From the IMG/VR virus record IMGVR_UViG_3300044535_001531, positions 1 through 24,177 of that record: a stretch of DNA of 24,177 nt, one strand, 5' to 3'. The position numbers were made by a program, and so were the translations under genes. This DNA is from a virus. Below, one piece after another: positions 6,796 through 24,177 of this stretch. The notes beneath the pieces were generated by a model. The model did no database searches and was not told where the DNA came from. It worked only from the letters and a program-made list of their open reading frames with translations. Position 1 is the stretch's first letter; each line of letters begins with the position of its first letter.

Positions 6796-7001
6796 GTAAG
6801 ATAGTAAAACAAGATGAATTAGACCTAATTGCTTTGGAAGAAAGAAAAGTTAGAGCATTAGAGAAAATTGCAGCATCGATGGATGCATTAACTATTTGGT
6901 TTGAAGAAATCGATAAAGATGATTGGAGTCAACGTGTCCAGTTCTATTTAACAGAATTTCATAATTTTGCTAAACCAAAAGATCCAACAATAGATGGATA
7001 A
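6792..7001 (+). CDS. Small helical protein of unknown function
   Basis: I do not recognise this 69-residue protein. Residues 5-35 form a probable amphipathic helix or short coiled coil (LIALEERKVRALEKIAASM), followed by a second helix with W36 and W45. There is no Cys, signal peptide or membrane segment. It is embedded in the operon with a 4-base ATGA overlap upstream and an 8-base overlap downstream, which supports it being a real gene. It may be a partner or regulator of the neighbouring transferases, or unrelated; the sequence does not decide this. Confidence 0.6.
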   Translation: MSKIVKQDELDLIALEERKVRALEKIAASMDALTIWFEEIDKDDWSQRVQFYLTEFHNFAKPKDPTIDG

Positions 7002-8415
7002 ACTAGGTATTATAGTACCTTACAGAAATAGACCTCAGCAACTTTTTGAATTCAAATTAAAAATTTCTGACTACCTTTTATCAAGTAATATTAAATACGA
7101 ATTAATTATCGTAGAACAAGATGACGATAAAAGTTTTAATAGAGGAAAGTTATTAAATATAGGATTTCAAAAAGCTAAAAGACTGGAGTGTACCTACGTG
7201 TGTTTTCATGACGTAGATATGCATCCGATAAAAGTAGATTATAGCCCAGTAGACAAACCAACTCAATTAGCTAATAGATTCGTATACGAAGAAGGAGTTC
7301 AAAGATCTGTATCAGATGATTACTTTGGAGGCGTAACTTTATTTCCTGTATCCCAATTTGAAGATATTAACGGATATTCAAATGAATACTGGGGCTGGGG
7401 ATTTGAGGATAACGACTTACTTGCTAGATGTAGAGAAAAAGGAATACCTCTTGCTACTAGGTTTTATAGACAAAATGGAGTTAATGGAATAGGATTAGAT
7501 TTTAATGGAGAATCTTCTTTTGTTAGATTACCAAATGTCTGCAATTTCAGAAAACCTCTAACCATCTACACTACCTTTAAGCCTTACAGAGTTAAGCCAA
7601 ACCCGGTAGAAATTGCCGATGAATTAGCAGTATATTCAATACCGGGACAAGACCTAAACCTATCTTACAATTCTTTCAATACTTACAAGTTTGAAACTTT
7701 TGATAAGAATGCAGAACCACATTCTATACATTCAAAAAACTTACCACCGTTAATTAGTAAGAGTATAGTAACGATAAACCCTAAGACTAAAAAAATAGAC
7801 TTTTATCTCAATGGTGAGAAGATTGGTACAAAAGGGATAAAAGATACGTTACATCCTTATTGGGAGCAAAAGTATATGTACCTAGGAGTAGGTGATCCTT
7901 TACGAGATAGAATGCAGAAATACTTTTACGGGTATATAACAGAGTTTGCAGTATTCAGTAGAGAGTTAAGTGCAGAAGAAATCAAAAGCCTTAATAATAA
8001 TTCTAGATATAGCTTAACACAAGAATTCGATAGATATAGTCCTGGGAATGAACTCGAAGTTTATTACGATGGACGTCATACTATAGGAAATACTTTAGTA
8101 GACTTAAGTAGAAATAATAAAGACGGTCAAATGATTAACTGCGGGTTAGTTGAAACATACCAACCACAGGAGTACACTCAGTTAGTACCTACAAGACGCT
8201 ACAGCACCTTTAATGTATTAAAACATAAAGAGAATGGATATAAAGACGGATACTGGGTTAACTGGGCAAGCCGGGAAAACCAATTAAGGTATTTTGAAAA
8301 AATTAAAGAAGGAATAACTCTTGAAAACGATGGTCTTAGTAGTTTACGGTACTTAGTAAAAAACCTTTCAAGTGATAAAAAAAAGCATTATCATCATATA
8401 GTAGTTACGTTATGA
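6994..8415 (+). CDS. GT7 (beta-1,4-galactosyltransferase-like) enzyme with nested LamG-like domain
   Basis: The N-terminal 157 residues match family GT7: VPYRNR (8-13), FNRGKLLNIGF (48-58), HDVDM with DVD 73-75, and the acceptor/catalytic segment NGYSNEYWGWGFEDND (126-141). Residues about 168-385 are a concanavalin-A/LamG-like lectin domain (FNGESSFVRLP; KIDFYLNGEKIG; YFYGYITEFAVFSRELSAEEI; VDLSRNNKDG). Residues about 399-473 then resume GT7: LKHKENG with His411 at the position of the Mn2+-binding His347 of bovine beta4GalT1, and DGLSSLRYLV (446-455) matching DGLNSLTYQV of that enzyme. The lectin domain is therefore inserted inside the catalytic domain, not appended. Typical GT7 catalytic domains are about 270 residues. 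Its start overlaps the preceding gene by 8 bases, and its end overlaps a tandem paralogue by 4. It probably transfers a hexose or HexNAc. Confidence 0.8.
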   Translation: MDKLGIIVPYRNRPQQLFEFKLKISDYLLSSNIKYELIIVEQDDDKSFNRGKLLNIGFQKAKRLECTYVCFHDVDMHPIKVDYSPVDKPTQLANRFVYEEGVQRSVSDDYFGGVTLFPVSQFEDINGYSNEYWGWGFEDNDLLARCREKGIPLATRFYRQNGVNGIGLDFNGESSFVRLPNVCNFRKPLTIYTTFKPYRVKPNPVEIADELAVYSIPGQDLNLSYNSFNTYKFETFDKNAEPHSIHSKNLPPLISKSIVTINPKTKKIDFYLNGEKIGTKGIKDTLHPYWEQKYMYLGVGDPLRDRMQKYFYGYITEFAVFSRELSAEEIKSLNNNSRYSLTQEFDRYSPGNELEVYYDGRHTIGNTLVDLSRNNKDGQMINCGLVETYQPQEYTQLVPTRRYSTFNVLKHKENGYKDGYWVNWASRENQLRYFEKIKEGITLENDGLSSLRYLVKNLSSDKKKHYHHIVVTL

Positions 8416-9830
8416 CAAAGCATAAATTAGGCGTTTGCGTTCCTTATCGAAATAGAGAAATACACTTACATGAGTTTATACCTAAAGTAGGAAAGTACTT
8501 AAAAGAACAGGGTATAGATTTTCAGATGTATTTTTGTCATCAAGTAGATGATAAGTTATTCAATAGAGGAGCTACAAAAAATATTGCAGCCAAGCATGCA
8601 TTTGAAGATGGGTGTGATTATATAGTTTGGCATGATATTGATATGATCCCAGAAGAGGATTGTGATTATTCATATCCAGAAAAAGGACCACGTCATATTG
8701 CTACGAAAATTTCACAAATGGATTATCAGCTAAAGTATCATGAATACTTTGGCGGTGCTGTTTTATTTACTAAAGAGCATGTAGAAGCTACAAATGGTTA
8801 TTCAAATAACTATTGGGATTGGGGGATGGAAGATGATGATTTATTTTGGAGATGTCATGTAGAAGGTCTTACACGTAATACATACTTAGGACCTAGAGAA
8901 CTTAAACAAAAGTTCTGGAGATTTAACGGAGAAGATTCTTATGTAAAAATACCTTTCCATAGAGAGATGAGAGGGTTGACCGCAGGTAGTCATACAATAT
9001 CAGTATTAACTAGAGCATTTCAACAACCAGAAAAGAACCCTATCTTCTTACTAGGAGATCACAATAACAGATACGTAGAGTATCCTATATTTAGATTACC
9101 GGGTTATGACTACGGAATATCTTTTAATAACTCTAGAGCAATGACTCTTACTTTTTGGAACACTTTTAATAACCACAATTACATGTGGGTTAAGAGATAC
9201 GACAATCAGTGGAGTTGGGTTACAGCAGTAATTAACGAAAGCACTAGTACAGCTCATTTATACTTAAACGGAACTGAAGTAGACTCAAAAGGTGGATTTG
9301 GAAGTCCATCTCCGTTAGAGTGGTTAGGTAAATTAAAAAGCTACGGAAGCGTTGCAGCTTACCTAGGTATGACTCCTTCTTTAGGAGAAGGCAATCCAGT
9401 AAAGTACTTCAAAGGAGATATTGCAAAAGTTTTTGCATGGAAGCGAGCATTGACTCCACAAGAAGTTGCAGCTATACATCTTAACTTACCTAAGGGAGAT
9501 CTCGTTTTAAACTTAGATGCTGATTACCCAAGGAGTACAGCAGAGTATCACCAAGTAGAAGAACGTGAAGAATCCTTCAGAATACCAAACTCAATACTAC
9601 CTTATAGAGTAGAAGGTAAGTTCAGATGCTTACCACATCCAGACGAAGGAATTGTAGACGGTAAATTTGTAAAAGGAGAAACTACTGCTGCTAACGAAAG
9701 ACGATACGTACTTCAGATGCAACAGGGTAAAGTTAATTATAAAGAAGACGGAATCAAACAAGTTCAATACACCTTGGTAGAAGAAAAGAAACTAACTCCT
9801 TGGGCTAAAATGTTAGATATAACCTTATGA
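8412..9830 (+). CDS. Second GT7 enzyme with nested LamG-like domain (tandem paralogue)
   Basis: Same architecture as the gene before it, but diverged. GT7 N-part: CVPYRNR (9-15), FNRGATKNIA (50-59), WHDIDM with DID 75-77, and NGYSNNYWDWGMEDDDLF (128-145). The LamG-like insert runs about 168-385, opening with RFNGEDSYVKIP and containing TAHLYLNGTEVDSKG and YFKGDIAKVFAWKRALTPQEV. GT7 C-part: FRCLPHPDEG with His409 at the metal-binding position, NERRY (428-432) and DGIKQVQYTLV (446-456). All the catalytic motifs are kept, so both copies are probably active, perhaps with different donors or acceptors. WDWG in place of WGWG is a substitution in the acceptor-binding segment. ATGA overlaps on both sides show translational coupling. 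Confidence 0.8.
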   Translation: MTKHKLGVCVPYRNREIHLHEFIPKVGKYLKEQGIDFQMYFCHQVDDKLFNRGATKNIAAKHAFEDGCDYIVWHDIDMIPEEDCDYSYPEKGPRHIATKISQMDYQLKYHEYFGGAVLFTKEHVEATNGYSNNYWDWGMEDDDLFWRCHVEGLTRNTYLGPRELKQKFWRFNGEDSYVKIPFHREMRGLTAGSHTISVLTRAFQQPEKNPIFLLGDHNNRYVEYPIFRLPGYDYGISFNNSRAMTLTFWNTFNNHNYMWVKRYDNQWSWVTAVINESTSTAHLYLNGTEVDSKGGFGSPSPLEWLGKLKSYGSVAAYLGMTPSLGEGNPVKYFKGDIAKVFAWKRALTPQEVAAIHLNLPKGDLVLNLDADYPRSTAEYHQVEEREESFRIPNSILPYRVEGKFRCLPHPDEGIVDGKFVKGETTAANERRYVLQMQQGKVNYKEDGIKQVQYTLVEEKKLTPWAKMLDITL

Positions 9831-11224
9831 GTTTACAAGAAGTAAAAAATAAATTAGATGGTGTTGGATGTGGCTTCTGTTTAGCTAAATGGACTCAAGT
9901 AACTATGCATTTAGGAATGGGAATGACGCATTCATGTCACCACCCTTCCCCTCATAAGATACCTCTAAAAGAAGTTGAAAGAAATCCTTCTGCACTACAT
10001 AATACTTCTTATAAAAAACAGAAGCGAAAGGAAATGTTAGAAGGAGGAAAACCAGAAGAATGTAATTATTGCTGGAAAGTAGAAGAGAGTTCTAACTCAT
10101 TTTCCGATAGAGTTTTTAAATCCTCAGAACCTTGGTCGATAGATCAGTTTACAAAAATTAAAGATAGTCACTGGAGAGAAGATTTCAATCCAAGATATGT
10201 AGAAGTATCTTTCTCAAATACCTGTAACTTCAAGTGTGCTTATTGTGGGCCACAGTATTCATCCAAATGGGTTGAAGAGATTGAGAAACACGGTGCATAC
10301 CCTACTAGCTACAATTTTAACGATATAAGCAATATACAGGCAAGAGGAGAGATGCCTTATAAGCATTCCGAAATAAACCCATATGTAGAAGCATTTTGGA
10401 AATGGTGGCCTGACTTGTATAAAGATTTACATACATTTAGAATCACAGGAGGAGAGCCTCTATTATCTAAAGATACATTTAAGGTTCTAGAATATATTCA
10501 AGACCATCATCATAAGAATCCTAACCTATCTTTATCAATTAATTCTAACCTTGGCGTTCCGGATAACCTTATAGATAGGTTTATTGAGATTGCTAAAGAC
10601 CTTTGTGAAAATAACAAAGTAAGAGAACTCACCATATTCACTTCAGTAGAAGCTAAAGGAGCACAAGCAGAATATACAAGATATGGATTAGAGTATGATA
10701 GGTTCTGGACCAATATAGATAAAATTCTAACAGCTTTACCAAAAGTTACTATTAACATTATGGCAACATTTAATGCACTTTCTGTATTTAGTTACGATGC
10801 ATTAATAGACAAGACTTTTGAGATGAAAAAGAAACATGCTAATGGACAGAGATACTGGGTATCGGCATTACAGTTGGATACTTCTTACTTAAGATGGCCA
10901 ACACACCTTTCTGTTAAGATACTAGAACCAGAACATAAAACATTAATTTTGAAGTCTGCAGAAAAAGCCTTATATTATGGTATAAAAGAATTTACAAAAG
11001 ATAACTACGGATTCTCTAATGTTGAGATTCAAAAAATAAAACGTATATACGACTACGCTACCTCAGAAGACGATTTCGATATAGAAAGAAATAGAAAAGA
11101 TTTTGTCATATTTGTAGATGAGTTAGACAAAAGAAGAGGTACAAACTTCTCAGAAACATTCCCAGAACTAAAAGAATTTTATGCTAAAATTAAAAACAGG
11201 AGAACCGTGGGTATTTTGGCCTAG
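9827..11224 (+). CDS. Radical SAM protein with N-terminal SPASM/twitch-like cysteine module (copy 1)
   Basis: The radical SAM core starts at about residue 124: NTCNFKCAYC gives the CxxxCxxC that binds the 4Fe-4S cluster and SAM (Cys133, 137, 140), and FRITGGEP (204-211) is the GGEP SAM-binding motif. Before it, residues 1-85 have Cys18, Cys37, Cys79 and CxxC Cys82 in a spacing like the SPASM/twitch auxiliary-cluster module, here N-terminal instead of C-terminal; an extra Cys15 is present. SCHHPSPHKIP (36-46) is shared with the copy at 11765. The family generates a 5'-deoxyadenosyl radical to modify peptides, sugars or cofactors; the substrate here is unknown. It overlaps the upstream gene by 4 bases and the downstream gene by 44. 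Confidence 0.8.
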   Translation: MSLQEVKNKLDGVGCGFCLAKWTQVTMHLGMGMTHSCHHPSPHKIPLKEVERNPSALHNTSYKKQKRKEMLEGGKPEECNYCWKVEESSNSFSDRVFKSSEPWSIDQFTKIKDSHWREDFNPRYVEVSFSNTCNFKCAYCGPQYSSKWVEEIEKHGAYPTSYNFNDISNIQARGEMPYKHSEINPYVEAFWKWWPDLYKDLHTFRITGGEPLLSKDTFKVLEYIQDHHHKNPNLSLSINSNLGVPDNLIDRFIEIAKDLCENNKVRELTIFTSVEAKGAQAEYTRYGLEYDRFWTNIDKILTALPKVTINIMATFNALSVFSYDALIDKTFEMKKKHANGQRYWVSALQLDTSYLRWPTHLSVKILEPEHKTLILKSAEKALYYGIKEFTKDNYGFSNVEIQKIKRIYDYATSEDDFDIERNRKDFVIFVDELDKRRGTNFSETFPELKEFYAKIKNRRTVGILA

Positions 11225-11765
11225 TAGCATCTGTGATACGTTTCCAGAAAATCCGGCAAACAAAATACTAAGAGGAGATTGTTACTTTGAGTTTGATCTT
11301 AGATTCACTTTGACGGAAGAACCGGTAGAAAGAAAAACAATATTTGCAATACTTCCTAAATATACAGGATTAGATATCCATTCAGAAGGAATGGTTTTTG
11401 CATATACTACAGAAGAAGAAACAGCATACATTAATCTACCTTCATTAATTAAAGTAGGAGAGGAAGTATTAATAACTGTAGAACACCAACCAAATAAGTA
11501 CTTAAGAATATTTATTAATAAGGAATTGATTCACGAGATTGATTTAGATAATAAGGTTTTTGGATTAGATAATAGCCCGCATATTATATTCGGTGCAGGT
11601 AATTTTCCTAAAAATAACTTCAACCTAAATTATACAAGTTTAGATCTTCATGAATTTATATTAAAAGGAATAACAGGAGTCTTAGCTCATCATAATTTCG
11701 AAGAGTTTATATTTGATAAGTCTGTTGATATATCCGGTAACCTAAATTTTATACATAAATTATAA
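11181..11765 (+). CDS. Stand-alone LamG/concanavalin A-like lectin-type protein
   Basis: This 194-residue protein looks like a jelly-roll carbohydrate-binding domain: DCYFEFDLRFTL, a central IKVGEEVLITVEHQ strand pair, KYLRIFINKELIHEI (matching the LYLNG step of LamG folds), SLDLHEFILKGI and a final DKSVDISGNLNFI. The same elements occur in the LamG inserts of the two GT7 genes upstream. It lacks a signal peptide. The ATG at 11181 lies 44 bases inside the preceding gene; no later Met gives a full domain, so I keep this start. Its stop overlaps the next ATG by one base (TAATG). It sits between two paralogous radical SAM genes and may deliver them to a glycan. Confidence 0.65.
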   Translation: MLKLKTGEPWVFWPSSICDTFPENPANKILRGDCYFEFDLRFTLTEEPVERKTIFAILPKYTGLDIHSEGMVFAYTTEEETAYINLPSLIKVGEEVLITVEHQPNKYLRIFINKELIHEIDLDNKVFGLDNSPHIIFGAGNFPKNNFNLNYTSLDLHEFILKGITGVLAHHNFEEFIFDKSVDISGNLNFIHKL

Positions 11766-13387
11766 TGGGAGTTTTCGCAAAAAAGGACGATGAATCGTTC
11801 CAGGAATATAGAGAAAGGGTTATAAATAAACTATCCCAATCTTTTTGTGGCGCTAAATGGTACAATGCTACCATCTGGCTAGGTAATGGTACGACAGCAA
11901 GCTGTCATCACCCCCCTGCACATAAAATACCTCTAGAAGAAGTAGCTAAGTCTTATAAGGCAATTCATAACACAACCTATAAGAAAGCTATCCGTAAGCA
12001 AATGATGGAAGGTGAAAGACCTAAGGAATGTGAATACTGCTGGAAGATAGAGGACTTAGGTCCTGATAAAGTATCTGATAGAGTTTATAAATCAGTTATC
12101 TATACAGACGAAGAATTAAAACAAGCTAGAACAGAATTAGGATATACAGAGGATGTAGACTTAAAGACGTTAGAGATTGCTTTCGATCCTAATTGTAACT
12201 TTGGCTGCTCATACTGTAATGCTTCGTTTTCAACTACATGGCAAAACGATATTAAAAAGTTCGGTCCATATCAGAACTTAGTTTCTGATGGAGCAGGAGC
12301 ATTCCAACATGACGGAAGACATGCAATGCCGTATGGTAGAAAAAACGAAGGTAACCCTTACATAGAAGCTTTTTGGAAATGGTGGGAAGGAGAATTACAA
12401 TACTCTTTGAGAGAGTTAAGAGTAACAGGAGGTGAACCAACTATGTCTCCAGATTTCTGGAAATTAATGGATTGGTGGAAGCGTAACCCTCAATGTGAAG
12501 TACCTTTTGCAGTAAACTCAAACTTAGGACAGAAGAAAGAATTGTTAGATGCTCTTATAGAATCTACTCATAGTTTTAAAGAGTTTAACCTTTATACTTC
12601 TTGTGAAGCTACAGGATTACAGGCTGAGTATATTAGATACGGACTTGAGTGGAAGACTTGGTTACAGAATATGTACCGAGTTAACGAAGAGGCAAATGTA
12701 AAGTCTGTGAACGTGATGATGACTATAAACGGATTATGTTTATTTTCTATTACAGAGTTTATGGATGAGATGTTAAAGTTAAAAGCAAAGCATGGAGCTC
12801 ATGCTGCTATTATGTCTTTTAATATTCTACGTTTCCCTTCTTTTCAATCAATCGTAACTTTACCGGTAGATATACGAATGGAGAGAGCAGCTCATATTGA
12901 GAAGTGGTTAGAAGCAAACTGGAAAGGAGGTTCTAATGGACTATTAGATATGGAAAGAGATGGTATACTTAGAATGATTGAATATATCAAACAAGTAGAT
13001 ACAGGTCACGCTTTTACTTCATCACTAGAAAGTAGAGAAAGAGACTTTAAATCTTTCTATGCTCAATATGATGTTAGACGAAATAAAGATATTTTAGCTG
13101 CATTCCCAGAAATTAAAACATGGTGGGATTCTATACCAGAAACTAAACTAGATGCACTTAAAGAAGTAATAGACGGAGATGATGCTAAGTCAAATAGATA
13201 CGTGCATGATGTTCTAAAGAAAGCTAAAGAAGAAGGTTGGGTACTAAATCCACAATGGCATAACCCAGGATCACAGGAGTATATAGAACCAGATCATCAA
13301 CAGCAAGATGATATGATTGATCTAATTGATTTGTTGAAAAAAGAATCTGATAATAATGGACCTGGATTTAAACGTAAATTAATATGA
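11765..13387 (+). CDS. Radical SAM protein with N-terminal SPASM/twitch-like module (copy 2)
   Basis: At 540 residues this is the longest of the three radical SAM proteins. The N-terminal module has Cys28, Cys47, Cys89 and Cys92, with ASCHHPPAHKIPLEE (45-59) and YKKAIRKQMMEGERP aligning closely with the copy at 9827, so the two are paralogues. The core has CNFGCSYC (Cys144, 148, 151) and RVTGGEPTMSP (219-229). Both also share the EAFWKWW segment just before the GGEP motif. The C-terminal 80 residues are an extra tail (KKAKEEGWVLNPQW, then a Q/D-rich stretch) absent from copy 1. Substrate unknown. It is coupled to both neighbours by overlaps of 1 and 4 bases. Confidence 0.8.
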   Translation: MGVFAKKDDESFQEYRERVINKLSQSFCGAKWYNATIWLGNGTTASCHHPPAHKIPLEEVAKSYKAIHNTTYKKAIRKQMMEGERPKECEYCWKIEDLGPDKVSDRVYKSVIYTDEELKQARTELGYTEDVDLKTLEIAFDPNCNFGCSYCNASFSTTWQNDIKKFGPYQNLVSDGAGAFQHDGRHAMPYGRKNEGNPYIEAFWKWWEGELQYSLRELRVTGGEPTMSPDFWKLMDWWKRNPQCEVPFAVNSNLGQKKELLDALIESTHSFKEFNLYTSCEATGLQAEYIRYGLEWKTWLQNMYRVNEEANVKSVNVMMTINGLCLFSITEFMDEMLKLKAKHGAHAAIMSFNILRFPSFQSIVTLPVDIRMERAAHIEKWLEANWKGGSNGLLDMERDGILRMIEYIKQVDTGHAFTSSLESRERDFKSFYAQYDVRRNKDILAAFPEIKTWWDSIPETKLDALKEVIDGDDAKSNRYVHDVLKKAKEEGWVLNPQWHNPGSQEYIEPDHQQQDDMIDLIDLLKKESDNNGPGFKRKLI

Positions 13388-14730
13388 AATTCGCATTCGA
13401 CAAATATGTAGATTTAGAAGAATATCCAAACCCTTACCCTCTTCCAAATGGAATAGTAGGGGCAGAAGATTTACCTAGAACTTATAATGAACTATCTAAA
13501 TATAACGTATACGGTTTTCTTTTTAAGAAACATTTAGATTATCAAGAACACCATTTTGGGCACGATACTGTAGACAACCTTATAAATGGTTCTGAGAAGT
13601 TTATGTACTCGATTTTACTGAGAGATAAAACTACCTTCCATCAGTTAAGTGATGAGAAGTATTACAAACTCAGTGATAAAATTGTTAAGGCAATACAGCA
13701 AAAACAAGGAGCGATATTACTAAGTCATTTATTTGAAGGAGATTTTAAGAAGAGAGATTACAGTGAAGTTGAGGCTATTAACCGGTTTGCATTAAAGTAT
13801 AATTTTAAAAAAGAGGACATACTAGTACTTTCTAATAACTTAAAATGGAATTATGAAGAACCAGAAAATGCTCTCTTTACAGTACGAACTTGTAATTACT
13901 TTCTACTTAACCCGTGGTTTATAAAGGAAGATCTCCTAGACGAAGGTAATGATCAATTCTTTCGAATTGGATTTGAAGATAAAAGAAGATACATAGGAGC
14001 ATATCCAAAACCTAAAAGGTTTCTTTCTTTAAATAGAAGACCTAGAACTCATAGGATTGTTCTTTTTACAGAGATAGCAAAGAACCCACAACTACGAGAT
14101 ACATCAGTATTAAGTATGGGAAAACGTAGCTTAGACCCTAACCAGGACTTAGATAAAGACCACTGGACTAGAACATATAACAATCCTTGGATGACTTTAT
14201 ATGATGCTTTTGTAGCAGATAATTACAAGCATGATAAAAAAGCAGGGATGGAGTTCCTTAGTAACTACAACAATGAAGAAGATTATTTTGTAGATTCTAA
14301 TTTAGAGTACAACTTAGCATTCAATTTAAACGAAACACTCCACTTAAATACATTTGTAAACGTATTCACAGAAACTTTGTTTGAAGAAGATACTATCTTT
14401 CTATCAGAAAAAATCTTTAAACCTATATACTGCTTACAACCTTTTATAGTATTTGGTAATCCCGGTACTCTAGAAGAGTTACGAAAGTTAGGTTTTAAGA
14501 CATTTGGAGAATTTTGGGATGAGTCTTATGATCAAGAAATCTCTTTTACAAAGAGGTTGGAAAAAATCATAGATATTATGAAAGATCTAGCTAATAAAAC
14601 TCACGGAGAGTTATTACAGATGACACGAGAAATGTCTCACATACTTGAACATAACTATGCACATATGATACAAGCTAGTAGGGCAGAAGTATTTACATTA
14701 AAACAAACACTAAATGAGCAATTCAGTTAA
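13384..14730 (+). CDS. Putative glycosyltransferase (GT-B/fucosyltransferase-like C-terminus)
   Basis: This 448-residue protein has no certain family by eye. Two features suggest a transferase: a basic strand-turn KRFLSLNRRPRTHR (211-224) typical of the centre of some GT-B-like phage and bacterial proteins, and NVFTETLFEEDTIFLSEKIFKPI followed by QPFIVFGNPGTLEELRKLGF (326-371), which resembles the donor-binding region of GT10/exostosin-type enzymes, where a TEK or SEK Lys/Glu precedes a P.I..G motif. The N-terminal 200 residues are unassigned and mostly alpha/beta. It overlaps the upstream gene by 4 bases and the next by 17. Alternatives include an uncharacterised sugar-modifying enzyme. Confidence 0.5.
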   Translation: MKFAFDKYVDLEEYPNPYPLPNGIVGAEDLPRTYNELSKYNVYGFLFKKHLDYQEHHFGHDTVDNLINGSEKFMYSILLRDKTTFHQLSDEKYYKLSDKIVKAIQQKQGAILLSHLFEGDFKKRDYSEVEAINRFALKYNFKKEDILVLSNNLKWNYEEPENALFTVRTCNYFLLNPWFIKEDLLDEGNDQFFRIGFEDKRRYIGAYPKPKRFLSLNRRPRTHRIVLFTEIAKNPQLRDTSVLSMGKRSLDPNQDLDKDHWTRTYNNPWMTLYDAFVADNYKHDKKAGMEFLSNYNNEEDYFVDSNLEYNLAFNLNETLHLNTFVNVFTETLFEEDTIFLSEKIFKPIYCLQPFIVFGNPGTLEELRKLGFKTFGEFWDESYDQEISFTKRLEKIIDIMKDLANKTHGELLQMTREMSHILEHNYAHMIQASRAEVFTLKQTLNEQFS

Positions 14731-15988
14731 AGATTATAAAAAATCAGAACATTTCTGCTCTGCACTATGGATGCACCTACATGTAGTAAACGACGGTAGA
14801 ACATATCCATGTTGTATGACTCCTATAGATAACCAATCTACTCTAGGTAACGTAAACAATAATTCCTTATTTGAAATCATGAATAGCGATAAAGCTAAGT
14901 CGATGAGAAAAGGAATGCTAGAAGGTAAACCACTTCCTTCTTCTTGTTCACGTTGTGTAAGTAAAGAGAAGTCCGGAATGGGTAGTATGCGAATCGGAAT
15001 GAATGATCATTGGTTTGATGAAGTTGAAGACCTAGTTGAAAATACAAACGAAGATGGAAGTATAGATGAGTTGAGATTACTATACTGGGACTTTAGATTT
15101 AGTAATTACTGTAACCTAGCATGTAGAACCTGCTCACCTTTATTCAGCACAGCATGGACTAAAGACTTTGTGCAGGTGTTTGGAGACAAGTCTGAACACT
15201 TAGGATTGATTAACTTAGATGGAGCTAATACGTTTTGGGATAATATTGAAGAGACTATACATACAGCTAAAGAAATTCACTTTGCAGGAGGAGAACCTTT
15301 AATCATGCCTGAACATTGGAAGCTTATTGAAATGCTTGAGGAGAGAAATCTTTACGACGTTAAGTTAAAGTACTCTACTAATGCTACAATGTTAGAGAAT
15401 AAAGGTAGAAATATAATTGATATTTGGAAAAAATTTAAACATGTACATTTAAGTTTATCTATAGACGGTACAGGAGATCTTTTTGAGTTAGTTAGACACA
15501 ACGGTAAATGGGCTAAAACAAGAGAGAATTTAATAAAGATAAATGAAGCAGGTATTGACTTTTGGTTACATCCAACGATTAGCCTTCTAAACATATTTAG
15601 AATAGATCAGATGCATAAAGAGTTTTTTGATATGGGATTAATACCTATTCATAAAAAACCTCACGAAAAATATCCTTTCGATCCAAGCCATTATTTTACA
15701 AGTAGATTTCATATTAACCCTGTCTTCTTCCCTATGTATTATGCGTTAGAGACTCTACCTAAAGAACTGAAAGAATTGGCAACTGAGAAGATAACTAAGT
15801 ACGGTAGAAGTATGGAAGCTAAATACGGTATTCCTTTTTCTGGATGGGAATCTTTATTAGATATTATGAACAAGAAAGAAGGTAATCCTGAATTTTTTAA
15901 ACGATTTATAACAGTAACAAAAGACCTAGATAAAGTTAGAAACCAGGACTTCTTAAAACTTAACCCAGAATTCAAGCCCTACTTTTAA
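14714..15988 (+). CDS. Radical SAM protein with N-terminal SPASM/twitch-like module (third, divergent)
   Basis: The N-terminal module is the clearest of the three: HFCSALWMHLHVVNDGRTYP then CC (Cys15, Cys33/34), LGNVNNNSLFEIMNS, and SSCSRC (Cys78, Cys81), just as in SPASM/twitch sequences that read 'C..W..l....dG..ypCC...lGn...sl.eI'. The core follows with SNYCNLACRTC (Cys133, 137, 140) and IHFAGGEPLIMPEHW (188-202). Family knowledge: such enzymes carry an auxiliary Fe-S cluster; phage members are known by sequence but without known substrates. It is less similar to the copies at 9827 and 11765 than those are to each other. It overlaps the previous gene by 17 bases and its stop shares one base with the next ATG. 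Confidence 0.82.
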   Translation: MSNSVKDYKKSEHFCSALWMHLHVVNDGRTYPCCMTPIDNQSTLGNVNNNSLFEIMNSDKAKSMRKGMLEGKPLPSSCSRCVSKEKSGMGSMRIGMNDHWFDEVEDLVENTNEDGSIDELRLLYWDFRFSNYCNLACRTCSPLFSTAWTKDFVQVFGDKSEHLGLINLDGANTFWDNIEETIHTAKEIHFAGGEPLIMPEHWKLIEMLEERNLYDVKLKYSTNATMLENKGRNIIDIWKKFKHVHLSLSIDGTGDLFELVRHNGKWAKTRENLIKINEAGIDFWLHPTISLLNIFRIDQMHKEFFDMGLIPIHKKPHEKYPFDPSHYFTSRFHINPVFFPMYYALETLPKELKELATEKITKYGRSMEAKYGIPFSGWESLLDIMNKKEGNPEFFKRFITVTKDLDKVRNQDFLKLNPEFKPYF

Positions 15989-17435: not shown

Positions 17436-18605
17436 ATGAAAGTAGGTTTTATAGGAATAGGTAAATTAGGAAAAGATGCTGCTGAAGTAATGTCAGAAAA
17501 ACATTACACTGAAGTATATGATACTGATACAAGTATTGTGACTTCTATGAAGATGGTTGATAGTGTCGAAAAAGTATGTAAAGATAAAGATATAATATTC
17601 ATAGCAGTACCAACACCTCATGACCCAGATTATGACGGAAGGTACCCTACTTCCCATTTACCAAATAAGGATTTTGATTACTCAATAGTAAAAGAAGTCT
17701 TAACTAAAGTTAATAAGCATACAAACTTAAACCAACTTGTAGTACTAATCTCTACAGTACTCCCGGGTACTATTAGAAGAGAGTTTATACCACTAGTTAA
17801 AAACTTTAGATTTATATATAATCCCTACCTGATTGCAATGGGGACTGTTAAGTATGATATGGTTAATCCAGAAATGGTAATTATAGGTACCGAAGATGGA
17901 TCAGAAACAGGAGATGCAAAACTACTTACAGATTTTTATTCTACTTTTATAAATCCGTCTACTAGAATAGAAATAGGAACCTGGGATGAAGCAGAATCAA
18001 TAAAAATATTTTACAATACGTTTATCTCAACCAAAGTAGCGCTTGTTAATATGATACAAGATGTAGCAGAGAAGAACGGAAATATAGACACAGATATAGT
18101 AACAGGAGCATTAGAGAGAAGTACAAAGAGAATATTAGGACCTGCTTACATGAAAGCTGGAATGGGAGACGGTGGCGGCTGTCATCCTAGAGATAATATT
18201 GCATTAAGATTTTTAGCGGAAAAGTTGAGATTAGGTTATGACTTATTTGACTCAATTATGAAAGCTAGAGAAAAACAAGCAAAAAATTTAGCAAATAAGT
18301 TGGTTCTTTACGCAAAACTTCATAAATTACCAATAATAATATTAGGTAAATCTTATAAACCAGGAGTACACTATGAAGACGGGTCTTCTTCAATACTAGT
18401 TGGACATTATGTAGAAGAGCAAGGTTATAAAGTTTTATACGATATTAAAGAACCTATTGAGGGAATATACTTATTAGGTCATTATAAGAAACATCATGAT
18501 TTTGATTTTCCTAAAGGATCAGTGATAGTAGATCCTTGGAGAGAATATACATCAAAGATAAACAGAGTAATACATTACGGTAATACTAGAAGGTTAAATG
18601 GCTAA
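17436..18605 (+). CDS. UDP-glucose/UDP-sugar 6-dehydrogenase
   Basis: It oxidises the C6 of a UDP-hexose (for example UDP-glucose to UDP-glucuronate) with two NAD+. At 389 residues it is slightly shorter than usual. The Rossmann start is MKVGFIGIGKLGKDAAE (GxGxxG). AVPTPHDP (57-64) and STVLPGTIR (106-114) are family motifs; AESIKIFYNTFISTKVALVN (186-205) gives Lys190 and Asn194, equivalent to the catalytic-site Lys and Asn; GDGGGCHPRDN (244-254) places the catalytic Cys249; GKSYKPG (304-310) is the UDP-binding C-terminal motif. The H in GGGCHPRD, where F/Y is common, is unusual. UDP-ManNAc or UDP-GlcNAc dehydrogenase activity cannot be excluded. It probably supplies an acidic sugar donor for the transferases. 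It overlaps the next gene by 8 bases. Confidence 0.88.
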   Translation: MKVGFIGIGKLGKDAAEVMSEKHYTEVYDTDTSIVTSMKMVDSVEKVCKDKDIIFIAVPTPHDPDYDGRYPTSHLPNKDFDYSIVKEVLTKVNKHTNLNQLVVLISTVLPGTIRREFIPLVKNFRFIYNPYLIAMGTVKYDMVNPEMVIIGTEDGSETGDAKLLTDFYSTFINPSTRIEIGTWDEAESIKIFYNTFISTKVALVNMIQDVAEKNGNIDTDIVTGALERSTKRILGPAYMKAGMGDGGGCHPRDNIALRFLAEKLRLGYDLFDSIMKAREKQAKNLANKLVLYAKLHKLPIIILGKSYKPGVHYEDGSSSILVGHYVEEQGYKVLYDIKEPIEGIYLLGHYKKHHDFDFPKGSVIVDPWREYTSKINRVIHYGNTRRLNG

Positions 18606-19644: not shown

Positions 19645-21390
19645 ATGGCAGAAACATTAATTTCACCAGGTGTATTAACGAGAGAAAATGATATTTCGTT
19701 TATCCAACCACAAGCGGCTGCGGTAGGTGCAGCGTTTATTGGTCCAGCAGTAAAAGGCCCGGTAGAGCAACCTATAGTAGTAACTTCTTACGGACAGTAT
19801 CAAAGATTATTTGGAACCACGATTACATCTGGTTCTAATAGCTATGAATACTTAACATCAATTGCAGTAAAGAGCTACTTTGAACAAGGAGGAAACACAG
19901 CATTAGTAACTAGAGTAGTATCTGGTTCTTATACACCTGCTTCTAACACAACCTTAGCTACAGCAGGCGGATCAGTTACTAACCCTTTCCGTTTAGAAAC
20001 ATTAGGAAAAGGAGACATATATAATAACGCAACAGGTTCAAACGCTGGAACAGCTGTAACAAACACAGACGGTTCAATTGCTTTAGGTAAAACAGATAAT
20101 ATCAGATTCGAAATTACAAATGTTAATAGCGATAACGGTACATTCTCATTGTTAGTACGTAGAGGGGACGATAGTGCAAAGAACAAGATTATCTTAGAAA
20201 CCTTTAATGATTTATCATTAGATCCAAACTCAGAAAATTACATCGAGAGAGTAATCGGTAACCAAACTGTATCTAAAACAGTTGAAGGTTCAGAAGTATT
20301 CGTAAGCGTAACTGGAGAGTATGCTAATAAGTCTAACTACATTAGAGTAAGTGCGGTAAATAACCCAACTTTAAACTACTTAGCAAATGACGGTATAACT
20401 GTTAATAGTAGCTACGATGATTTACTCCCAACAGCACAGTTAGGTTACTTCTTCGGCGCAACAGGTACTGCATTCCCAGGAGGTAGAAAAGCTAACTTCT
20501 TTAAGAATATTACAAACGTAGATACACAAGGTTTAATAGCAACTAACTATGCAGATGCTATCTCAATCTTAAATAATAAAGACGAATACCAATTCAATAT
20601 TGTAACAGCACCAGGTCTTATTTATGACTTCGGTACTCACAAGACACAATTAGATTCTATCATCTCATTAGTAGAAGGTAGAGGAGATGCAATCGCAGTA
20701 ATCGACTTAGAGCAATACGGTGCTACAGTATCAAACGTAACAGCAGCAGCAGGAACAGTTAACTCTTCTTATGCAGCTTCTTACTGGCCTTGGTTACAAA
20801 CTCAATCTGCTACAGGTAAAAACGAATGGGTTCCTGCTTCAACAGTTATCCCAGGTGTTTATGCTTTCACTGATAGTGCAGCTGCTCCTTGGTTCGCTCC
20901 AGCAGGTTTAGTTAAAGGAGGTATTCCTAACGTAATTCAGGCAGAACGTAAAGTTAGCCGTGAGCAACGTGATTTATTATACCGTGCTAATGTTAACCCA
21001 ATTGCTACATTCCCTGGACAAGGTATTGCAGTATATGGTCAGAAAACTTTACAGAAAAAAGCTTCAGCTTTAGATAGAGTAAACGTTCGCCGTTTATTAA
21101 TCGAATTGAAACGCTTCATCGGAGGTCAGGCTAATAACTTAGTATTCGAACAAAACACAATCGCTACAAGAAACAAATTCTTAGCAATCGTTAACCCTTA
21201 CTTAGAATCAGTAGTTCAACGTCAAGGTTTATTCGCTTACAGAGTGGTAATGGATGATTCTAACAATACAGCTGATATCGTAGATAGAAATCAGATTATT
21301 GGTCAGATCTTTATCCAACCAGCTAAGACTGCAGAATTCGTAGTACTTGACTTCACAATTGAACCAACAGGTGCAACATTTGTAGCATAA
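19645..21390 (+). CDS. 18: Contractile tail sheath protein (T4 gp18-like)
   Basis: This 581-residue protein forms the outer contractile sheath. The N-terminus LISPGVLTRENDISFIQP (5-22) followed by AAFIGPAVKGPV and QPIVVTSYGQYQRLFG (42-57) is the classic sheath start (P-G-V..E.D, G....GP). The middle (about 100-330) is a variable surface insert. The C-terminus has NVRRLLIELKRF (480-491), ANNLVFEQN, and QIFIQPAKTAEFVVLDFTIEPTG at the end, matching the conserved sheath C-terminal domain. T4 gp18 is 659 residues, so this is somewhat shorter. The ATG has no Shine-Dalgarno. Late codons (CGT, AAC, TTC, ATC) are more frequent here than in the glycan operon, as expected of a highly made protein. Confidence 0.93.
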   Translation: MAETLISPGVLTRENDISFIQPQAAAVGAAFIGPAVKGPVEQPIVVTSYGQYQRLFGTTITSGSNSYEYLTSIAVKSYFEQGGNTALVTRVVSGSYTPASNTTLATAGGSVTNPFRLETLGKGDIYNNATGSNAGTAVTNTDGSIALGKTDNIRFEITNVNSDNGTFSLLVRRGDDSAKNKIILETFNDLSLDPNSENYIERVIGNQTVSKTVEGSEVFVSVTGEYANKSNYIRVSAVNNPTLNYLANDGITVNSSYDDLLPTAQLGYFFGATGTAFPGGRKANFFKNITNVDTQGLIATNYADAISILNNKDEYQFNIVTAPGLIYDFGTHKTQLDSIISLVEGRGDAIAVIDLEQYGATVSNVTAAAGTVNSSYAASYWPWLQTQSATGKNEWVPASTVIPGVYAFTDSAAAPWFAPAGLVKGGIPNVIQAERKVSREQRDLLYRANVNPIATFPGQGIAVYGQKTLQKKASALDRVNVRRLLIELKRFIGGQANNLVFEQNTIATRNKFLAIVNPYLESVVQRQGLFAYRVVMDDSNNTADIVDRNQIIGQIFIQPAKTAEFVVLDFTIEPTGATFVA

Positions 21391-21427: not shown

Positions 21428-21913
21428 ATGGCAGTATTAGATTCTAACGAAATTATGTTCAGAGCCTTCGAACCGAAGGTACAGAATAGATTTATCCTAT
21501 ACAGTGACGCTATACCATCATTCATGGTTAAGGCGGTAACTGCACCATCTTTCACAGATGAGGAGATCAAATTAGATCACATCAACTCTTATAGAAAGAT
21601 TCGTGGAAAAAGAAACTGGGAAAACATGGATATGACATTGTACGATCCAATTAACCCATCAGGCGCTCAAGCAGTAATGGACTGGGCTCGTCAATCATAC
21701 GAATCAGTAACCGGTAGAGCTGGTTATTCAGATTTCTACAAGAAAGATTTGACTTTGAATCTTTTAGGACCAGTAGGTGATATCGTATCAGAGTGGATCG
21801 TTAAAGGAGCATTCATCGTGAACATGGCCCAAGGTTCTTTGGACTGGTCAACTAGCGAAGGTGTTGAATTAACAATCACTGTAGCGATGGACTACTGCGT
21901 ACTTAACTACTAA
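21428..21913 (+). CDS. 19: Tail tube protein (T4 gp19-like)
   Basis: This 161-residue protein polymerises into the inner tube of the contractile tail. It matches the phage T4 gp19 family in length (T4 gp19 is 163) and in pattern: NRFILY (20-25), IPSFMVKAVTAPSF (29-42), KLDHINSYRKIRGKRNWENMDMTLYDP (48-74) and a C-terminal ELTITVAMDYCVLNY strand. It directly follows the sheath gene, the T4 order 18-19. It has its own promoter motif and a strong terminator starting 26 bases after the stop, so it can be made at high level on its own. Confidence 0.93.
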   Translation: MAVLDSNEIMFRAFEPKVQNRFILYSDAIPSFMVKAVTAPSFTDEEIKLDHINSYRKIRGKRNWENMDMTLYDPINPSGAQAVMDWARQSYESVTGRAGYSDFYKKDLTLNLLGPVGDIVSEWIVKGAFIVNMAQGSLDWSTSEGVELTITVAMDYCVLNY

Positions 21914-22026: not shown

Positions 22027-22356
22027 ATGGAAAATTTTGATTTAAGAAAATTTTTAGTAGAAAATAAATTAACTACTAACTCAAAACAAGCCAGCGGTGA
22101 AGTTAACGAATTCATGGGCTTATTTGGCGGTGGCGCTAAATTTAAAGATGGTGACAAAGTATATATTAGACAAGGAGGTCATGATGGTGCAGAATTCGAA
22201 ACTACACCTAGAAAGATTAGCTTAAGAGCTTCTAATGGCAAGCCACTTAAGAAAGACGGTAAGACTCAATACTTTGTAACAACCCCAGAACACCAAGGAC
22301 AGTTCTTTATTTCAGGAGGACTTTACGTAGACGAAAAGAATATAAAACCAGCATAA
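22027..22356 (+). CDS. Small protein of unknown function in tail module
   Basis: I do not recognise a named family for this 109-residue protein. The first 17 residues, MENFDLRKFLVENKLTT, form a helix of a type (FDLxKFLxENKLT) that I recall from various marine phage proteins. Residues 35-105 look like a small beta barrel, with KFKDGDKVYIRQG reminiscent of KOW/SH3-like folds (KDGDKV..R.G), and a final GGLYVDEKNIKP. It has its own promoter motif and its own terminator, so it is a single-gene unit between the tube and the gp26-like gene. Virion component or morphogenesis factor are both possible. Confidence 0.7.
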   Translation: MENFDLRKFLVENKLTTNSKQASGEVNEFMGLFGGGAKFKDGDKVYIRQGGHDGAEFETTPRKISLRASNGKPLKKDGKTQYFVTTPEHQGQFFISGGLYVDEKNIKPA

Positions 22357-22470: not shown

Positions 22471-23211
22471 ATGGATCAAACACAAAAATTCCCTACAGAA
22501 ATTGTAGATCTTCCGTCAAAAGGATTGCTTTACCCTGTAGACCATCCACTAGCATCAGGTACCGTAGAAATGAAGTACATGACTGCTAAAGAAGAAGACA
22601 TTCTCACTAACCAAAGCTTTATCGAAAGAGGAGTTGTAATTGACAAGTTATTACAGTCTTTGATTGTAACCAAGTTTAGCTACGACGATCTTTTAGTAGG
22701 AGACAAGAATGCTATCTTAATTGCAGCAAGAATACTAGGCTACGGTAAAGACTATGAATTTACTTACCAAGGGCAAAAAGAAAACGTAGATTTATCTTTG
22801 ATTGAGAATAAGGCTTTTGATGAAAGTTTATTTGCAGATAGAAAGAATGAGTTTACTTTTGAATTACCATCTACAGGTAACACAATTACATTTAAGTTAC
22901 TTACTCATGGTGATGAACAAAAAATTCAACAAGAGATTAAAGGTCTTAAAAAGATACAGAAGGATTCATCTCCGGACTTATCAACTAGGTTGAAACATAT
23001 GATACTTTCAGTTAATGGTGCTACAGATACTAAGAGCATTAGAGACTTCGTAGATAATCATTTCTTAGCAAGAGATTCACGTGCATTTAGAAAATTTATT
23101 TCTGAGTTTCAACCAGATGTAGACTTAAAGTTCTACCCAGAAAACGGACCAGCAGGAGGGGTTGATATTCCAATTGGGGTCAGCTTTCTTTGGCCTGACG
23201 CCAACGTATAG
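22471..23211 (+). CDS. 26: T4 gp26-like baseplate hub/tail assembly chaperone protein
   Basis: The 246-residue protein matches the T4 baseplate gp26-type family: TEIVDLPSKGLLYPVDHPLASG (9-30), VEMKYMTAKEEDILTNQSFI (32-51), DKLLQSLIV (58-66), and an acidic C-terminal half rich in EEL/ISEF helices. In T4, gene 26 is followed by 51 and then the 27-28-29 hub and tape-measure genes. Here it sits just upstream of a short overlapping ORF and a likely tape measure gene, the position of tail-assembly chaperones in many phages. The reading frame ends with DIPIGVSFLWPDANV and overlaps the next ORF by 50 bases in a +1 frame. It has its own composite promoter. Confidence 0.8.
   Translation: MDQTQKFPTEIVDLPSKGLLYPVDHPLASGTVEMKYMTAKEEDILTNQSFIERGVVIDKLLQSLIVTKFSYDDLLVGDKNAILIAARILGYGKDYEFTYQGQKENVDLSLIENKAFDESLFADRKNEFTFELPSTGNTITFKLLTHGDEQKIQQEIKGLKKIQKDSSPDLSTRLKHMILSVNGATDTKSIRDFVDNHFLARDSRAFRKFISEFQPDVDLKFYPENGPAGGVDIPIGVSFLWPDANV
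23158..23211 (+). other. Candidate +1 frameshift region in the gp26-like/ORF overlap
   Basis: The downstream frame is +1 relative to the gp26-like frame and is open from 23129. Two GGG-G stretches in the upstream frame (GGG at 23158-23160 then G; GGG at 23176-23178 then G) would let a glycine tRNA re-pair one base forward. A shift at either gives a fusion reading either directly into TTG 23162 or into SAFFGLTP. No shift has been shown. Confidence 0.4.
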
Positions 23212-23449
23212 AGCATCTATATTTAATCAGATACATGAAATAGTATTTCACGGAAAAGGTGGATATGATCATGATACTGTTTATGCAATGCCTGTATGGC
23301 TACGTAATTTTACCTTTCAGAAACTGAATGAATATTACGAAAAAGAAAAAGAAGCGATGGATAAAGCTAAGAGTAAATCACCTAGCAAATCAGCTCCAAG
23401 AGGACCTTCAGTAAGGAAACCTTCTTATAGTACTAAGGCTCGCCCATAA
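23162..23449 (+). CDS. Overlapping ORF, probable tail-chaperone (GT-like) second product
   Basis: This 95-codon frame opens with TTG at 23162 and contains no ATG until about codon 43, well into the conserved part, so it is either started at TTG or reached by a frameshift from the gp26-like gene. FFGLTPTYRASIFNQIHEIV (9-28), GGYDHDTVYAMPVWLRNFTF (about 33-52) and NEYYEKEKEAM form a compact conserved-looking domain; the last 30 residues are basic and S/P-rich (KSPSKSAPRGPSVRKP), suggesting disorder or binding to the tape measure protein. Its place between gp26-like and tape measure genes fits a T4 gp51-like or lambda GT-like role. Residue numbers count the TTG as 1. Confidence 0.65.
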   Translation: MIFQLGSAFFGLTPTYRASIFNQIHEIVFHGKGGYDHDTVYAMPVWLRNFTFQKLNEYYEKEKEAMDKAKSKSPSKSAPRGPSVRKPSYSTKARP

Positions 23450-23491: not shown

Positions 23492-24177
23492 ATGGGCGCA
23501 AACGACAATAGCCAGTTAGAAGAAGCAAGAAGGCTCTTACAGGAGATCAATACCTTAAGAGCTAGACTTAATCAGCAACCGTTAACATTAACGCCGGCTG
23601 ATGCTGTGCAAAATATGCAAAGTTTGCGCAACGAACTGAGAGGTATACAATCACAATTCGGTGAAGTTGATAATACTGCAACAAGTTTGTATGACAGAGT
23701 AAGAGCAATTTCTGCTGAATTTAAAAATCAACCTGGAGCTTTACAGAAGATTAGAGGTTCTATGAGGAAAATTACCTCTATTGCGGAAGAACTTAAACTA
23801 GAAGAACAGGGTATTAGAGATTTATCTGTAAAGCAATTAGATGACTTATCTCAAAAATTAAAAGAAAATAAAAAGATATTAGATGATGAATCTCAGAGAC
23901 TACTTAATGGAGAGGATTTATCAGACGCCGCACAAAGAGAAGTACAAGCGTTAAAAGATTTAATACAAGAACAAGGTGGTATTACTAATATGACCGGCCA
24001 ACAAGTTGATGCCGCATTAGAATTAGTAAATACAATGGGTAGTTTGTCTGCAGAACAAAAAGCAGTTTTATCAAACTACATAGATCAGGGTAATGCAATT
24101 GGAGAAATTGAAAACCAGATTGAAGCCGTAAAACAACGACAAAAAGAAGTTAATTCCCTAATGGGCGTTGGAGGAGC
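23492..24177 (+). CDS. Tape measure protein, N-terminal part (runs off the window)
   Basis: An open frame of 228 codons from the ATG at 23492 continues past the window end. The visible protein is almost entirely helical with coiled-coil segments: NSQLEEARRLLQEINTLRAR (6-25), NMQSLRNELRGIQSQF, KLKENKKILDDESQRL, and IGEIENQIEAVKQRQKEVNS near the end. Position right after the gp26-like/chaperone pair, its own late-type promoter, and the start of a long alpha-helical protein all fit the tail tape measure protein, which sets tail length and is ejected with DNA. The transmembrane and transglycosylase parts that often follow are outside the window. Confidence 0.7.
   Translation, partial: MGANDNSQLEEARRLLQEINTLRARLNQQPLTLTPADAVQNMQSLRNELRGIQSQFGEVDNTATSLYDRVRAISAEFKNQPGALQKIRGSMRKITSIAEELKLEEQGIRDLSVKQLDDLSQKLKENKKILDDESQRLLNGEDLSDAAQREVQALKDLIQEQGGITNMTGQQVDAALELVNTMGSLSAEQKAVLSNYIDQGNAIGEIENQIEAVKQRQKEVNSLMGVGG

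Follow-up and report, generated by a model that had tools for sequence, protein, structure and literature searches.

Two overlapping reading frames in the tail cassette of a marine phage very probably encode a pair of G/GT tail-assembly chaperones belonging to the T4 gp26/gp51 family, with ribosomes proposed to reach the second frame by a +1 shift at TTT|C (23185). Comparison across related genomes leaves us with little doubt about the programmed +1 frameshift considered by itself, apart from any chaperone role. The properties computed here are the two frames and their conservation, the fact that many relatives have no start codon that could be used, the invariance of TTT|Y, and an architecture matched by T4 gp51 and by the -1 version of cyanophages. 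The window, meaning the whole stretch of DNA analyzed, is a 24,177-base IMG/VR viral record of a marine phage with a myovirus tail cassette at its right end, where the following features are located:

19645..21390, + strand, tail sheath (phrog_23, E 6.4e-71; PF04984)
21428..21913, + strand, tail tube (phrog_4542, E 2.2e-23)
22027..22356, + strand, 109-aa ORF of unassigned function between the tube gene and G
22471..23211, + strand, G: gp26-like tail/hub assembly chaperone, 246 aa, predicted zero-frame product
23129..23211, + strand, overlap of both open frames, 83 nt
23185..23188, + strand, proposed +1 slip site TTT|C, its TTT invariant in 73 distinct relatives
23185..23199, + strand, nearly invariant block TTTYTWTGGCCTGAY, through which both frames read
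23189..23449, + strand, T: putative +1-frame extension, 86 codons and a stop, helical
23492..24177, + strand, tape-measure-like gene, truncated at the end of the window (position, coiled coil, and a weak match to phrog_4704 at E 0.007)

The G protein matches phrog_150 with an E-value of 4.7e-9 and PF12322 with 23.9 bits, slightly below the 24.5 cut-off, and searches of Pfam and PHROG with the 109-aa ORF yielded zero matches. Among isolated phages, Flavobacterium phage immuto is the closest; its gene order is identical to that of the window, identity is 69.5% in the gp26-like protein and 49.5% in the second frame, and its counterpart of the gene at 23492 carries the annotation tape measure protein. 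A tblastn search with the T part retrieves immuto (E 5e-23) and Microcystis phage Mel-JY01 (E 1e-9). The beginning of the T frame escapes automatic gene callers, and annotators miss or truncate T; in immuto (locus L002, 8854-8964) the T part is annotated merely as a truncated, 36-codon hypothetical gene.

An earlier note on this DNA had described an overlapping ORF of 95 aa with a TTG start (23162-23449), shifted by +1 against the frame of the gp26-like gene (22471-23211) and immediately preceding the tape measure gene, and all of these elements hold on recomputation. The first ATG is codon 43 of the ORF, the overlap is indeed 50 nt when counted from the TTG, extending to 83 nt because the open +1 frame begins at 23129, and the assignment of the next gene agrees with its coiled coil, its weak phrog_4704 match and the immuto annotation. 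To assess conservation we used the best 80 of about 600 relatives in IMG/VR, of which three are contigs ending before the end of the gp26-like gene, leaving 77. A +1 ORF overlapping the 3′ end of G is kept in all 77 of these relatives with a complete G 3′ end, and also in immuto. Between pairs of relatives, pN/pS in the +1 frame is 0.21, versus 1.36 and 1.66 in the other two frames, and 62% of the differences in the +1 ORF fall at third codon positions. The +1 frame is therefore under purifying selection and evolves as a protein in exactly that frame, so that its overlap with G, being kept in every one of the 77 relatives, exceeds what chance would produce.

The only nearly invariant stretch of the overlap is TTT-YTW-TGG-CCT-GAY (23185-23199). 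Across 73 distinct relatives, 12 of its 15 columns are invariant, two have a single exception and one is C or T. The base following TTT is C or T in 73/73, and, whereas upstream phenylalanine codons are TTT in 73% of cases and TTC in 27%, at the slip site the codon is always TTT, an outcome with a naive probability of about 1e-10 that ignores the relatedness of the sequences. For tRNA-Phe to re-pair one base forward, from UUU to UUY, this combination of an invariant TTT and a following C or T is needed. The +1-frame residue directly before FF varies freely among relatives, as would be expected if the residue preceding FF(GL) were not translated. In eight relatives a +1-frame stop lies one codon ahead of the block. 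No relative without the TTT|Y site was encountered in the scan of the best 80 of about 600, nor was there, among the relatives examined, any that combined an ATG start for the second ORF with an absence of slip-prone bases. Downstream of the site we detected no stable RNA fold (z -0.9), and no conserved Shine-Dalgarno-like stimulator was found.

These comparisons also relocate the slip. The proposal of the earlier note that a programmed shift joins the gp26-like gene to the ORF preceding the tape measure gene is retained, but the two GGGG tracts that it put forward as slip sites, which do occur at 23158-23161 and 23176-23179, are not. The first tract is present in 28/68 relatives and the second in 30/68, and the alignment of the overlap in relatives identifies TTT|Y at 23185, and not GGGG, as the conserved site. 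Furthermore, since the +1 stop in the eight relatives lies 3′ of both tracts and one codon ahead of TTT, a shift at GGGG would terminate there.

According to the mechanism we propose, most ribosomes would end at 23211 and release the 246-aa G protein. In some ribosomes, P-site tRNA-Phe on UUU (23185-23187) would re-pair to UUC, skipping C23188, and translation would continue in the +1 frame to yield a 325-aa G-T fusion composed of G residues 1-239 and an 86-residue helical T extension. The predicted fusion junction reads ...IPIGVSFFGLTPTYR..., and the predicted spanning peptides are ...GVSFFGLTPTYR for the window protein and ...GVSFFGLTPEYR for its immuto equivalent. Judging from the lambda system, G would be expected to coat the tape measure protein and the less abundant fusion to bring in subunits of the tail tube or hub through its T tail. 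The identity of the slipping tRNA, the efficiency of the shift and the roles of G and T are inferred.

It is possible, albeit unlikely, that the frameshift is real but that the next tRNA slips, with Leu on CUU (or Phe on a second UUU) moving +1 to UUU while Trp UGG occupies the A site, as in the CUU_UGA site of prfB. The slip established for prfB goes from CUU to UUU (PMC10885494), and 72/73 relatives have CTT or TTT as their second codon, followed by an invariant TGG. Nonetheless, relative L046 carries CTA as its second codon and the uncultured phage LR756508 reads TTT-CTA-TTC, and at such sites CUA to UAU would re-pair badly whereas UUU to UUC would re-pair perfectly. The two candidate slip codons would yield products one residue apart, FLG versus FFG.

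We attach a low probability to the downstream ORF being a separate gene, perhaps coupled to the gp26-like gene, with its own start at TTG 23162, TTG 23174 or the near-invariant CTG 23195. An AGGAGG (23154-23159) does lie upstream of TTG 23162 in the window, but its spacing is 2 nt to that codon and 14 nt to TTG 23174. The latter TTG is frequent among relatives, and a separate small gene is annotated in both immuto and Mel-JY01; against this, 22/73 distinct relatives have no ATG, GTG or TTG able to start the ORF up to four codons past the slip site, ATG is absent in 55/73, and the stop directly before the block in eight relatives leaves no room for the usual start codons. The codons ahead of FFGL vary freely, like untranslated sequence, the in-block CTG is missing from the distant relatives SP-15 and LR756508, and T4 gp51 itself naturally joins a G-like and a T-like part in one frame. 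A -2 shift at TTT-CTT, as in phage Mu, would arrive in the same frame as +1 but requires mismatched re-pairing where +1, reading the site directly, is fully matched, making it very improbable. Even less credible are explanations without ribosomal frameshifting, by errors of sequencing or assembly or by transcriptional slippage along a T run: the source is a metagenomic contig with homopolymers close to the junction, but the arrangement is shared by 77 contigs and the isolated phages immuto, Mel-JY01 and SP-15, and the TTTCTTT found in more than half of the relatives is too short a run for polymerase slippage.

The proposed +1 arrangement extends to distant phages, at TTT followed by a pyrimidine or at a run of T. 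A +1 ORF opens near the end of G in Bacillus phage SP-15, Listeria phage LIS04, Rhodothermus phage RM378, Streptococcus phage GXN1, Mel-JY01 and uncultured LR756508, as well as in 6/7 MAG loci, with sites reading TTT-TTT-C/T/A, TTT-CTA or TTT-CGT. At the same place, Kyanoviridae, phiM12, phiW-14, Atu_ph07, MIJ3, LR756511 and HTVC008M have a -1 ORF at T_TTT_TTC or T_TTT_TTT. In P-SSM2 and in 42/42 cyanophage-type contigs inspected, T_TTT_TTC lies two codons ahead of the stop, and the cyanophage ORFs labeled 'gp51' (L140-L218, about 2187-2400) combine an invariant T_TTT_TTC with an ATG within a few codons 3′ of it. Cyanophages may thus re-initiate at the ATG 3′ of the slip site and use two expression routes together; HTVC008M has no ATG at this position. 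The slip site of Vi01 is weak, and in a deltaproteobacterial MAG locus (L224, 3504-3893) TTC-TTC at the G end is accompanied by a T-like ORF in the -1 frame; this site is no standard heptamer and has no simple place in the pattern. Searches across lineages with T-only HMMs placed the correct T ORFs near the top with E-values of 0.2-0.6, which are not decisive alone. With SP-15 G as query among viral contigs, SP-15 itself was the sole match, and an NCBIfam search returned nothing useful. On a tree of G parts with a midpoint root and several long branches, the T4-type pair forms one clade adjoining the -1 phages. Clustering of the three arrangements is strong, with 3 changes required versus 14.1 after shuffling.

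The relationship to T4 emerges from profile comparisons. PF12322 and phrog_150 match both T4 gp26 and gp51, but the last 47 positions of phrog_150 are covered by gp51 alone, which also matches phrog_634. The -1 ORF of P-SSM2 is a phrog_634 'baseplate hub assembly catalyst' (E 1.2e-31), and the P-SSM2 G+T fusion aligns with gp51 end-to-end over 235 columns at an hhalign E-value of 1e-15, which is approximate because the cyanophage alignment included at least one row that was too long. For the LR756508 fusion, the match to phrog_150 reaches position 273, and comparison of the window T part with gp51 gives a weak profile match (E 0.0013, probability 18%). On the basis of the phrog_150 and phrog_634 matches and of the cyanophage fusion alignment, gp51 resembles G-T and gp26 resembles G; the two look like paralogues, with gp51 comprising a gp26-like protein and a T-like tail. 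In T4, genes 26 and 51 are separate, as the earlier note says, but gene 51 would not be T alone; the idea put forward there of tying the T4 hub chaperones to the lambda-type pair gains support.

Both gp26 and gp51 have been counted among the hub assembly chaperones, and gp51 is described as essential but with no known function (PMC3004832). G/GT frameshifting, by -1, -2 or +1, is reported to be widely conserved among the long-tailed phages 'except T4' (PMC5009743). Our comparisons indicate that the G/GT system probably extends to the T4 family. We further consider it rather likely that gp51 is the GT partner of gp26, and that an ancestral gp26-family gene shifted at a UUU run, with -1 kept in some phages, +1 in the window lineage and duplication in the T4 lineage, leaving no T4 exception. 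We found no report in the open-access literature of frameshifting in gp26-family phages, or of gp26/gp51 as a G/GT pair. If this reading is correct, gp51 acquires a testable role and the T4 exception disappears. The gp26 family would then present three solutions at one homologous site (+1 shift, -1 shift and gene duplication), providing a natural experiment on the evolution of frameshift direction.

Predicted structures are consistent with the proposed kinship. In AlphaFold models, the window fusion (pLDDT 82.5) and gp51 (pLDDT 87.5) end alike, in four helices ordered short-long-short-long, with the T part of the fusion model at low confidence (pLDDT about 45-79). The folded fusion was made with the code GTCA=V and, because TTTC occurs in frame twice, is one residue (A for S) off the proposed product; a joint alignment of T-only and G-only rows misaligned the T rows, and T rows of close relatives only were therefore used for the structure. 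A Foldseek search of BFVD matched the fusion model to gp26-like hub proteins, among them the baseplate hub subunit of SP-15 (E 6.2e-16, TMt 0.80). Fold searches of the PDB with the window fusion model or G and with gp51 found no significant match to a solved structure, the HK97 tail assembly chaperone 2ob9 matching the window model with E 2.8 and probability 0.23. The tie to lambda-type chaperones would thus be one of gene position, arrangement and G/GT logic, not of demonstrated homology.

Among known systems, the lambda-type G/GT pair (Xu, Hendrix and Duda 2004) shares with the window a pair of overlapping ORFs in the interval from the tube gene to the tape measure gene, a second ORF without its own start, and a short and an extended product, here predicted. 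In the window, this second ORF lacks an independent start and would be reached via a conserved slip site. The lambda type differs in using a -1 heptamer, in place of +1 at TTT|Y, and in its G part, which in the window falls in the T4 gp26 family by both sequence and fold similarity (phrog_150, BFVD, and PF12322 just below cut-off). The canonical -1 heptamer X_XXY_YYZ is absent from the window (TTT-CTT-TGG, +1) and present in the cyanophage relatives; it is typical of G/GT systems but not required, +1 and -2 members being accepted (PMC5009743). T4 gp26/gp51 share the family (PF12322/phrog_150) and, in gp51, a putative C-terminal T-like extension with the same helix order in the models, but are two paralogous genes in opposite orientation without a frameshift. 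In cyanophage P-SSM2 and pelagiphage HTVC008M, too, T occupies a different frame that overlaps the G end at the same place, where FF is encoded, but with a -1 site (T_TTT_TTC or T_TTT_TTT), followed by an ATG in the cyanophages and not in HTVC008M.

A conserved TTT-CGC +1 site has been proposed for the HF1-group haloviruses (PMC7230728), and the HF1/HF2 group shares with the window a TTT-C motif in a 15-bp block and a +1 tail-chaperone ORF (PMC7230728). We confirmed the HF2 arrangement (AAG TTT CGC AGA TAG), but the chaperone of this group belongs to phrog_14268 and has no PF12322 match. As in the UUU_C class of +1 sites (influenza PA-X, amalgaviruses and the HF1 group), the window has TTT|C, a putative P-site UUU followed by C; the rare CGN codon that follows UUU in that class is replaced by CTT in the window, and CGT appears only in the relatives GXN1 and L223. 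A two-gene G/GT system without a frameshift has been proposed for orf143/144 of Bacillus phage 0305phi8-36 (PMC2147016), an arrangement similar to what we propose for T4.

Elsewhere in the window, three radical-SAM-like proteins are encoded at 9827-11224, 11765-13387 (slightly below the Pfam cut-off) and 14714-15988 (with a SPASM domain). They adjoin glycosyltransferase and methyltransferase genes, and the cluster is perhaps a glycan or peptide modification cassette. Two neighboring galactosyltransferase-like proteins (Glyco_transf_7N/7C) at 6994-8415 and 8412-9830, each with a laminin-G/concanavalin-like domain, are apparently a tandem duplication, and 17436-18605 encodes a UDP-glucose/GDP-mannose dehydrogenase family protein.
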